A DNA stretch of 64,000 nucleotides, taken from Bacteroidetes bacterium RIFCSPLOWO2_12_FULL_35_15. GTDB taxonomy: Bacteria; Bacteroidota; Bacteroidia; 2-12-FULL-35-15. Where the stretch lies: the NCBI GenBank assembly GCA_001769385.1, contig MEPB01000049.1:62001-126000 (forward strand), written 5' to 3'. Below, piece after piece: positions 51,847 through 54,820 of the stretch; position 1 is the first letter of the stretch; every line of letters starts with the position of its first letter. The notes under the pieces are model-generated. The model was not told where the DNA came from, made no database searches, and saw only the letters and a program-made list of their open reading frames with translations. A program made the position numbers and the translations under genes.

Positions 51847-52440
51847 ATGACAACCACAAAAATGTTGATGATGGAAAAAAATCATGAAAACAAAATTTTC
51901 GAAAAAGTCAATTTCGCTAATAAAGAATTGAAAAATGCAACATTCGAAAAATGTACATTTATGAATTGTGACTTTTCCAATAGCAATTTATCAGGCAATA
52001 CGTTTAATGAATGTTCTTTTGAAAACTGCAACATGAGTATGGCAAAGCTTAACAAAACAAAAGTGACACATGTGAATTTTGTCAATTGTAAGTTGATCGG
52101 CATTAATTTTAATGAGTGTGCCGATTTTCTTTTCAGTGCTGATTTTAATAATTGCATCCTTGATTATACATCTTTTGCCGGAAAAAAAATACCAAAAATA
52201 AAGTTTGTAAATTCCTCGTTAAAAGAAGCGAATTTTTCAAATACAGAGCTAAGCGAATCAATATTTCTAGATTCTAATTTGGAAGGAGCTGTTTTTAATA
52301 AAACGATTTTAAATAAAGCTGATTTTACTTCTGCTTATAATTTTACTATTGATCCGGAATCGAATAGTGTAAAAAAAACAAGGTTCTCAAGAAGCTCTAT
52401 TCACGGGCTCTTGATGAAATATGATATGGTAATTGAATAA
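51847..52440 (+). CDS. Pentapeptide-repeat protein
   Basis: 197 residues (the true start could be the internal Met9). From about residue 20 to 175 it consists of five-residue turns with a central Phe or Leu (KNATF EKCTF MNCDF SNSNL SGNTF and NSSLK EANFS), building a right-handed quadrilateral beta-helix. Several turns contain Cys (KCTF, NCDF, ECSF, NCNM). No signal peptide. Some relatives mimic DNA and protect gyrase, but nothing here points to a specific role. Confidence 0.88.
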   Translation: MTTTKMLMMEKNHENKIFEKVNFANKELKNATFEKCTFMNCDFSNSNLSGNTFNECSFENCNMSMAKLNKTKVTHVNFVNCKLIGINFNECADFLFSADFNNCILDYTSFAGKKIPKIKFVNSSLKEANFSNTELSESIFLDSNLEGAVFNKTILNKADFTSAYNFTIDPESNSVKKTRFSRSSIHGLLMKYDMVIE

Positions 52441-52458: not shown

Positions 52459-53787
52459 CTATTTTCTTAATTGAGCAAAAGCTTTTTTTAAAGGAGGGAT
52501 CACTACCATTAAAATGCCTGCAAACATTATAAATCCTGAAAAAGTAAAGACAATTAGGATAGGATTTATTTTTGCCATTACTTCAGCAAACGATAATTTA
52601 TCAACCACAATTCCAATTCCTTTTTCAGCACCGGCAATAATCAAACACACAAAAAATACCAATAACGAAATATTAAAAATCCAATAGCCACTTTTAATAG
52701 TTTTTTCTTCACCTGTTGTATAGTTTTTATCTGTCGCATCATTAATGATAAAGAAGCAGGATGCCAGAAGAATCATGGTGTTTATGCCAATCATACTTCC
52801 CATTGCATGAGCAACGGTAATATGAGTTCCATGTGTAAATAAATTAACTGCAGGAATGGAGATCGCCAATGCAAGTGTTAGATTAATAAATATCCAAATA
52901 TCAGCAGCTACTAAAAAGCGATATGATAAAATATGAAAATCTTTTTTGCTTTCCGAAAGAGTACTTTTCCAGTTCCAAATAATTTTTGCAAGCAGAATTA
53001 ATTCTGTCATGCTAATGATGTATGAAAGATAACGAATCCATTGGGCCGCAGGTACATTATAAATATGATGAGCCCAACCAAACATTAAATTCGTGAGACC
53101 AAGTAAATAGGTTAGAAAAGCTATTTTGGTTCTACTCATGCTATGGTCGCCTTTAATTTTTTCCATCACAAATATCGCTGTTCCGTAGATCAGCATATTC
53201 CATGAGCCAACTAAAGCCCCATTTGCTTTCCATTGTACCGTTATTTCACGAACAACATTATTTCTGAAATAGGGAAGAACCCAAAGATAACTTTCGGTAA
53301 AAGTGAAGAGAAAAAAGAAAATCCCGGTACCCCACATCCATTGGTACACAGGCCAGTTTTTTGCAGTTGTAAAAACTGTTTTAAAATAATTCCATCCAAA
53401 AATGATCCAGGAAATAAAAATTGGAATGGCAAGAATAGGAGGGAACTCCCAATATTCTCTTCCACCAAATTTTCCAAAGAAATAACTAAATATAATTAGT
53501 ATGCCTGTTAAAACGAAAATATAAAAATGAAATCTTCCTGCTCTTTCAGAATACAAAGGAGCTCCAATAAATTTTGGAAGATAATAGTAAATGCCACCAA
53601 CAGATGATAAAAATACCCATGCAACAACAAGTGAAACGTGAAGTGGGCGGTTTTTAAAGAAAGGTAATGAATCCAAAGTTCCGGGGAAAACAAATTGCAA
53701 AGCAGCGATACTTCCGAAAAGTAATCCGCCTAAAAGAGCGATAAGGCCAAGAGTAATGAATGCTAATCCTAAATTTTTTTTAATCAT
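52459..53787 (-). CDS. NorB-like haem-copper oxidase superfamily subunit with altered ligands
   Basis: 442 residues, about 12 membrane spans, related to cytochrome bc-type nitric oxide reductase (GREYWEFP motif; HHIYN; THGTHITVAHA). H50 fits the first low-spin haem ligand, H240/H241 two FeB ligands and H327 the haem b3 ligand. Aligning by motif and spacing (Trp to HH is 44 residues in both) puts N189 where NorB has the third FeB histidine, V193 at the FeB glutamate, N197 at the next conserved glutamate and M329 at the second low-spin haem histidine; E262 is kept. It joins norC with a 1-bp overlap. It may be a divergent NO reductase or another activity. Confidence 0.82.
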   Translation of the reverse strand: MIKKNLGLAFITLGLIALLGGLLFGSIAALQFVFPGTLDSLPFFKNRPLHVSLVVAWVFLSSVGGIYYYLPKFIGAPLYSERAGRFHFYIFVLTGILIIFSYFFGKFGGREYWEFPPILAIPIFISWIIFGWNYFKTVFTTAKNWPVYQWMWGTGIFFFLFTFTESYLWVLPYFRNNVVREITVQWKANGALVGSWNMLIYGTAIFVMEKIKGDHSMSRTKIAFLTYLLGLTNLMFGWAHHIYNVPAAQWIRYLSYIISMTELILLAKIIWNWKSTLSESKKDFHILSYRFLVAADIWIFINLTLALAISIPAVNLFTHGTHITVAHAMGSMIGINTMILLASCFFIINDATDKNYTTGEEKTIKSGYWIFNISLLVFFVCLIIAGAEKGIGIVVDKLSFAEVMAKINPILIVFTFSGFIMFAGILMVVIPPLKKAFAQLRK

Positions 53788-54203
53788 TATTGATTATAAT
53801 TTACACTTCCATCACTATTAATCGAATACTTGATTGTTGGTGAAACACCTGTTTTGTCAACGTATTTGAGGTATGCAATGAGGGAGTTTATTTCTTGTTC
53901 ATTTAAATGAAAATTTGGCATTTTCTGTGTTCCGCTCATGATAAGCGCTTTTGTATAGATTTCTCCTTTTCCCGGAGCAGAAATAACATTGGTTAGATCG
54001 GGGCCCATATAACCGCCAAGGCCATACAATTGATGGCATGAAAAACAATTATTTTGCTGGTAGATCACCTTTCCCGCTTGAGCATCAGTTGTCATTAATT
54101 CTTTTGCATCGCTGGGTGTATCGCTAGTATAGACAAAAAACGAATAGATACAAAAAGTAATAAATAAGAATCCAAAATAAATTTGTTTAGCGATCAATGG
54201 CAT
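53787..54203 (-). CDS. NorC-like membrane-anchored cytochrome c
   Basis: 138 residues: a single N-terminal anchor (about 7-25) and one c-type haem domain with C53-F-S-C56-H57 and a likely axial Met95 (GTQKMPNFHLNEQEINSLIAYL). The block CFSCHQLYGLGGYMGPDLTN is the NorC signature. It would carry electrons from the periplasm or respiratory chain to the NorB-like subunit, whose gene begins within its last codon region. Haem motif intact. Confidence 0.9.
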   Translation of the reverse strand: MPLIAKQIYFGFLFITFCIYSFFVYTSDTPSDAKELMTTDAQAGKVIYQQNNCFSCHQLYGLGGYMGPDLTNVISAPGKGEIYTKALIMSGTQKMPNFHLNEQEINSLIAYLKYVDKTGVSPTIKYSINSDGSVNYNQ

Positions 54204-54379: not shown

Positions 54380-54820
54380 TTAATTGTTCTTTGTTTTTGT
54401 TGTTTTTGAAGCATTTAGGAATGATTGAATTGTAGTTTTACTCATAACTATACGGGCACCTTCTCTTATTTTTATAAATTCATCACGCATGACACATGAA
54501 ATTTCATTTTTACAATCATCGCATTTTTCATAAAAATTAATGGACACACAAGGAACAAGTGCAATAGCGCCATCAAATAATCGATACACATCAGCGACTG
54601 AGATTTCTTTAGGATTTTTGAGAAGATGGTATCCTCCTCCTGTTCCTTGCTTACTGCTTACCATGTGAGCATGTTTAAGTTCAAGAAGAATTTGTTCAAG
54701 AAACTTTTTGGGGATATTTTCTGATTCCGCGATAAAAGCTGTCTGCATATAACCCTTTCCAACGTTTTTTCCAAGACATGTTAAAGCCTTTAGTGCATAC
54801 TTGCATTTCATCGACATCAT
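54380..54820 (-). CDS. Rrf2 family regulator, possibly NsrR-like
   Basis: 146 residues. Winged-helix N-terminal part (MKCKYALKALTCLGKNVGKG; IPKKFLEQILLELKHAHMVS; KQGTGGGYHLLKNPKEISVA) is typical of Rrf2. Four cysteines follow in PCVSINFYEKCDDCKNEISC (spacing C-x8-C-x2-C-x5-C), a probable iron-sulfur site. Regulators of this family with clusters sense NO (NsrR), iron-sulfur status (IscR) or redox. Its place directly upstream of the NorC/NorB-like genes on the same strand favours NO sensing, by inference. Confidence 0.88.
   Translation of the reverse strand: MMSMKCKYALKALTCLGKNVGKGYMQTAFIAESENIPKKFLEQILLELKHAHMVSSKQGTGGGYHLLKNPKEISVADVYRLFDGAIALVPCVSINFYEKCDDCKNEISCVMRDEFIKIREGARIVMSKTTIQSFLNASKTTKTKNN

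Follow-up and report, generated by a model that had tools for sequence, protein, structure and literature searches.

What does a protein built like the NorB subunit of the NO reductase cNOR do when several residues of its metal and haem sites are missing? This question is raised by a pair of genes on the minus strand of the window, the whole 64,000-nucleotide stretch of DNA that was analysed. The NorB-like haem-copper-fold subunit, here NorB* (442 aa; 52459..53787, minus strand), was recognised from its ORF, its cNOR match, its AlphaFold model and fold Z-score, and a COX1 profile match of 131 bits, no other domain being found in the 442 aa. According to the ORF calls in the window, the gene directly upstream on the same strand encodes a NorC-like, membrane-anchored monohaem cytochrome c (NorC*, 138 aa; 53787..54203, minus strand), identified by its NorC match and haem motif. 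No NCBIfam model fitted NorB*; the top one, ccoN, reached 44.6 bits where the cut-off is 583. Searching the window's own genome with PF00115 retrieved a CoxA-like protein, a CcoN-like protein, NorB* and one weak match, with no further NOR-like protein.

Upstream of norC* lies a gene for an Rrf2-family regulator (54380..54820, minus strand; Rrf2 profile, 114 bits), and Rrf2 was found again upstream of the cytochrome c and NorB* genes in loci L064 and L065. The convergent neighbour of norB* (51847-52440 of the window) appeared by eye to be pentapeptide-repeat-like. Elsewhere in the same genome, on contig C26, a 431-aa protein encoded just after a RIC gene (L173:7780-9072) matched COX1 with 28.7 bits, below the cut-off, and from its sequence it reads as another very divergent haem-copper-like protein.

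Metal and haem ligands of NorB*

NorB* was compared with cNOR by phmmer against P. aeruginosa NorB (3o0r_B; E 1.4e-11), by a MAFFT alignment that included 13 canonical cNOR rows along with cbb3 subunits, and by a profile-profile comparison with 13 cNORs (probability 99.8, E 7.4e-29). The three agreed that the third FeB His, the Glu pair of helix VI and the second low-spin-haem His are unmatched in NorB*. They uphold an earlier note on this DNA, which had described a cNOR-like scaffold with missing ligands and an altered metal site, and the residues that it named (H50, N189, V193, N197, H240, H241, E262, H327 and M329) all stand where it placed them. In the segment of helix VI coded by the N189-N197 codons (53197..53223, minus strand), the two Glu positions of cNOR are taken by V193 and N197, while the second low-spin-haem His is replaced by M329. 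The note had also set Asn189 opposite the FeB His. There is no His there, but the profile-profile comparison aligns G190, after a one-residue gap, rather than N189; the alignment is uncertain by this one residue only, and neither candidate is His. The note's own counter-case, a His at the third FeB position or a second His on the low-spin haem, was looked for by profile alignment and did not appear, and between residues 87 and 215 NorB* has no His at all. By the haem and FeB ligand numbering of the P. aeruginosa enzyme, the residues absent from NorB* are in cNOR FeB ligands or lie close to FeB.

The same positions were followed in relatives. A pattern search of 84,980 species genomes gave 556 matches, of which 542 proved to be relatives, and the best 80 of these 542, hereafter the named loci, belonged to Bacteroidota, Woeseiaceae and other Gammaproteobacteria, Alphaproteobacteria and Ardenticatenales. 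Ligands were counted over 107 aligned rows, namely the window, 79 of the 80 named loci (L115 was left out, as the gene finder gave no target) and 27 other regions, with some genomes present twice. The low-spin haem ligand H50 (codon 53638..53640, minus strand) was retained in all 106 rows with a letter. The FeB-type histidines H240 and H241 (53065..53070, minus strand), E262, a candidate metal ligand (53002..53004, minus strand), and, within H327-A328-M329 (52801..52809, minus strand), the proximal b3 His H327 and the Met at the low-spin haem position were invariant in 107 of 107, as were E165, W186, K187, G190, N197, Y201 and Y243. In total, 61 columns were retained in at least 105 of the 107 rows. 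The haem/calcium region was also kept (R110 in 107/107, E111 in 105/107, E114 in 91/107, N315 in 101/107 and H319 in 106/106).

Column 193, where cNOR has a Glu of the FeB site, held Val (72 rows), Thr (33) or Ile (2) in all 107 rows. Column 189 held Tyr in 75 rows, Asn in 16, Gly in 12, Ala in 2, and Met and Leu in one each; because of this variation, we rejected the idea that Asn189 is a ligand substitution of the NO dismutase type.

Passages of PMC3413370 name a histidine sextet as the signature of haem-copper oxidoreductases, and six conserved His, serving CuB or FeB and the low- and high-spin haems, are the criterion in the relevant parts of both PMC3084760 and PMC3413370. NorB* has four of the six, the third FeB His and the second low-spin His being absent in 107 of 107 rows. 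By this six-histidine definition NorB*, judged on its sequence, is not a cNOR, a qNOR or an ordinary haem-copper oxidoreductase.

Extent and conservation of the family

In a set of 59 genomes (the window's own, those of the same genus and those of the same class), 25 carried a member of the NorB* family with 42-94% identity, below which no full-length match appeared until about 25%. One of them (G006) had two norB* copies, on contigs C94 and C6. A sample of 395 Bacteroidota genomes contained eight with a family member, the window's own included. In a sample of 299 Pseudomonadota genomes the only family-level match was in the centre genome; nine other matches at E <= 1e-20 were partial and their loci also matched qNOR/NOD probes, so no intermediate forms were found in this sample. 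Viral contigs held no relative of NorB*, and plasmids gave distant matches only, all below 60% identity, the 30 matches listed being at about 23-24%.

Compared with its nearest relative (94% identical), norB* showed a dN/dS of 0.038 and is under strong purifying selection. Given this value and the recurrence of the same residues across the 107 rows, the missing ligands are not due to chance or sequencing error.

The NorC* partner

NorC* matched P. aeruginosa NorC (3o0r_C) with E 2e-15 and was 30% identical to NorC of S. meliloti. A NorC-like cytochrome was encoded directly upstream of norB* in at least 57 of the 80 named loci, and those lacking it may reflect failure of the gene finder. The claim that NorC is intact held for the haem site, since C53/C56/H57 (CxxCH) and M95 were conserved in nearly every one of 58 rows, but not for the position equated with E70c of cNOR, where Leu replaces Glu in all 57 rows with a letter; Tyr65 was present in 45 of 57. 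PMC4816578 gives E70c and the residues of the calcium site by name.

Kinship and fold

In a tree of 47 rows, which held no B-family NOR, the 24 NorB* family members formed one clade (support 100/100; stem of 1.92 changes per column), separate from the cNOR clade (97/91). The NorB* clade stood beside cNOR and qNOR with a support of 89/79, not starred, and CcoN and other C-type-like rows fell outside this group. The best tree thus suggests, at that support, that the family is the sister of cNOR plus qNOR. The AlphaFold model of NorB*, which contains no haem, had a pLDDT of 87.4 and a pTM of 0.90. It was weakest at residues 231-280 (blocks of 63-76 pLDDT), which hold H240, H241 and E262. Fold comparison gave the same Z of 40.8 for cNOR (4xyd) and for cbb3 (9g6b), and VIA and Foldseek did not separate the two for NorB*.

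NorB* shares with cNOR the NorB fold, the NorC-type haem c partner, H50, H327, the HH pair and E262, together with the Ca/propionate residues R110, E111, N315 and H319. It differs in lacking the third FeB His and equivalents of E211 and E215, in having Met at the position of the second low-spin His, in the absence of NorD from its genomes, and in the Leu of NorC* in place of E70c. With qNOR it shares the same superfamily side of the tree; it lacks, however, the fused cytochrome-c-like N-terminal domain, its haem c being on the separate NorC*, and it lacks the aligned His that three qNOR rows keep.

The earlier note had left a choice between a described NOR variant and a new activity. Tree and profiles point to cNOR/qNOR and leave the described variant unsupported, the B-family NORs being considered by description only. 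Like NorB*, eNOR, bNOR, sNOR, gNOR and nNOR, which are shown or proposed NO reductases, have unusual active-site residues (Q, N or D for some, in an entry of table A4 of PMC8756737). They are described as B-family related in the pertinent text of PMC11388526, whereas NorB* groups with cNOR/qNOR. In the literature searched, which did not cover the NOR survey of Murali et al. (PNAS 2024), we found no description of the NorB* family, and absence from print is not claimed.

Genomic company of NorB*

The presence of NosZ was scored with profile TIGR04246, PF18793 being uninformative, as nothing matched it anywhere. Of the family-positive genomes, 18 of 25 had clade II NosZ above the cut-off, compared with 4 of 34 of the family-negative ones (Fisher p 2.7e-6). 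The association was seen within the genus (11/16 vs 0/20) and across other families (7/9 vs 4/14, p 0.036); it must be noted that the genomes are related and all these p values are therefore too small. In seven of the 25 family-positive genomes, NosZ above the cut-off was not found. The window's own genome has NosZ (contig C78) and neither NirK nor NirS, and 17 of the 19 NosZ genomes without NirK over the cut-off or full-length NirS carry the NorB* family.

A link to nitrite reduction was rejected. NirK was not associated with the family (3/25 vs 2/34, p 0.64), the only full-length NirS among the 59 genomes was in a family-negative one (G052), NrfA was found in 0/59, and no pattern emerged. 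RIC (ScdA_N) was present in 19 of 25 family-positive and 7 of 34 family-negative genomes, a difference that was not significant across other families (6/9 vs 6/14, p 0.40).

NorD is required for FeB insertion in cNOR, as stated in a passage of PMC9976466. It was found in 0 of the 25 family-positive genomes and in two of the 59 overall, both family-negative, NosZ-bearing and with a canonical cNOR (G036 and G052). One family-positive genome (G017) has, in addition to norB*, a gene resembling cNOR that adjoins NirK on a short contig, yet this genome too gave no NorD. Since NorD is missing from all family-positive genomes, FeB may be absent from NorB*; the second site may hold no FeB, or may be filled without NorQD.

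Near norB* itself, NosZ was encoded in 2 of the 27 regions (L168, where it is accompanied by NosD, NosL, ABC transporter genes and a cytochrome c, and L169) and, within the fetched DNA, in one of the 80 named loci (L082). Putative NO dismutases, which are qNOR-like proteins of 770-776 aa that have HN in place of HH and Gln in place of Glu, were encoded within about 5 kb of norB* in four lineages of Bacteroidota: L176:9060-11387, with identical proteins in L075 and L076; L143:13966-16275; L169:18365-19999, cut by the region's end; and L181:11084-13369, divergent from norC*. Two genomes (G038 and G043) do carry such a qNOR-like putative NO dismutase, the counts in the relatives having covered NosZ, NirK, NirS, NrfA, RIC and NorD. 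In sections of PMC3413370, putative NO dismutases are described as qNOR-like, with Asn for the second His of HH and Gln for Glu, without a proper quinol site, and as having lost electron entry. NorB* resembles them in its substituted FeB-site residues and adjoins their genes; it differs in keeping HH and E262 (107/107) and in having a haem c partner.

Other recurrent neighbours, each named from one representative, were Crp/Fnr (23/80 loci), AsnC (21/80), proline dehydrogenase (20/80) and class II ribonucleotide reductase (13/80). The last two followed norB* in many Bacteroidota loci (L067, L070, L131). In the Proteobacteria loci L096-L128 the regulator was a divergent one of the AsnC/Lrp type, in many cases accompanied by COX15 and HemN, and Bacteroidota had Crp/Fnr instead. 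At a Thermus cNOR locus the Rrf2 and cytochrome-norB neighbours recur, together with a DUF542 gene, and a Cupriavidus qNOR has ytfE before and ribonucleotide reductase after it. Searching 74 upstream regions for FNR, HcpR and NsrR-like motifs gave nothing above shuffles.

In 5 of the 27 regions a 411-aa unannotated membrane protein was encoded directly upstream of norC*, and its relatives adjoin nos clusters and RIC, the window's own genome included. These membrane proteins of 400-433 aa have an H(S/W)H motif and, where tested, no Pfam or NCBIfam match (L168:11196-12428, L180:7077-8309, L170:13266-14504, L172:15633-16931 and L173:4538-5761).

Proposed function

We consider it somewhat probable that NorC* and NorB* form a cytochrome-c-fed two-subunit enzyme that takes up NO, with reduction to N2O as its most likely reaction. 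Electrons would pass from a periplasmic donor to the haem c of NorC*, then to a low-spin haem b whose ligands are H50 and M329, and from there to haem b3 (H327). NO would bind at haem b3, beside a small metal site to which H240 and H241 contribute. E262 probably completes this site, which would be of a two-His-one-Glu type instead of three His plus Glu. We infer the His/Met ligation and this second metal from ligand residues that are invariant and at homologous positions. The haem content is likewise predicted, as are the existence and the nature of a second metal, and NO is the presumed substrate because kinship, the NorC-like partner, the company of NosZ and the NO dismutase neighbours point to it.

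The cNOR profile match, the retained haem/calcium residues and the company of RIC and class II ribonucleotide reductase were counted for NO reduction. Against it we counted the lost FeB-site residues, the absence of NorD and of a NirK association, the lack of support for RIC across families, the 7/25 genomes without NosZ above the cut-off, the relatedness of the genomes, the qNOR-like proteins of G038 and G043, the absence of a known NO-regulator motif, and the weakness of the AlphaFold model around H240, H241 and E262. The fuller proposal is more tentative, although plausible: a third C-family-related NOR lineage with a His/Met haem b, a two-His-one-Glu or metal-free site and no NorQD, which would be the unrecognised NOR of many Bacteroidota that are at present classed as N2O reducers lacking NOR and would, in some lineages, be paired with an NO dismutase.

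A different fate of NO would also suit an enzyme without the third FeB His, both Glu and NorD that lies beside putative NO dismutases in four lineages: NorCB* could disproportionate or oxidise NO, or only sense or trap it at haem b3, beside NO dismutase and NosZ, without making N2O. We regard this as unlikely, albeit worth attention, since the conserved haem c partner (CxxCH and Met) implies external electrons, unlike putative NO dismutases, and the NosZ association fits a producer of N2O. Rather less probable is that catalysis has been lost and NorCB* is an electron-transfer module feeding NosZ from quinol or cytochrome. The degenerate FeB site agrees with such a role, as do the association with nos clusters and the few cases in which the genes are linked to them; a module of this kind, however, would not need invariant H240, H241, E262 and H327, and NosZ above the cut-off is lacking in 7/25 genomes and encoded in only 1/80 named loci.

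It is very improbable that NorB* is a divergent C-type (cbb3) oxygen reductase, even though its structure is equally close to CcoN (Z about 40) and support for the cNOR side of the tree is only 89/79. Its genome already has a CcoN-type fusion, no CcoO or CcoP was recognised among the recurrent neighbour genes, its partner is another one, and it lacks the third His. Moreover, L234 aligns with what we take to be the exact position of the helix VII Tyr of CcoN. A cross-linking Tyr in helix VII marks the C-type oxygen reductases, according to a passage of PMC3084760. Finally, a decaying, functionless cNOR paralogue, as the loss of otherwise universal ligands might suggest, is contradicted by the dN/dS of 0.038 and by the 61 columns that are the same in 105 or more of the 107 rows, and deserves hardly any credence.

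Significance

The NorB* family is easily missed, because catalogues of haem-copper oxidoreductases require six His and marker sets seek cNOR or qNOR. One reference collection, as described in part of PMC3084760, discarded sequences without the histidine sextet, and the family would be filtered out of it for that reason. A conserved and selected family with four of the six His and a low-spin Met raises the question of what minimum active site NO chemistry needs.

In the portion of Graf et al. (2014; PMC4250227) concerned, 24 Bacteroidetes genomes had nosZ and no nir, and nor was recognised in only 17% of them; in comparison, 17 of the 19 comparable NosZ genomes here carry the NorB* family. If NorCB* reduces NO, many 'N2O-only' reducers would both make and remove N2O, and marker-gene surveys would have to be read differently. 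NorB* travels with the enzyme that destroys nitrous oxide, and it may be an overlooked NO reductase relevant to greenhouse-gas cycling.
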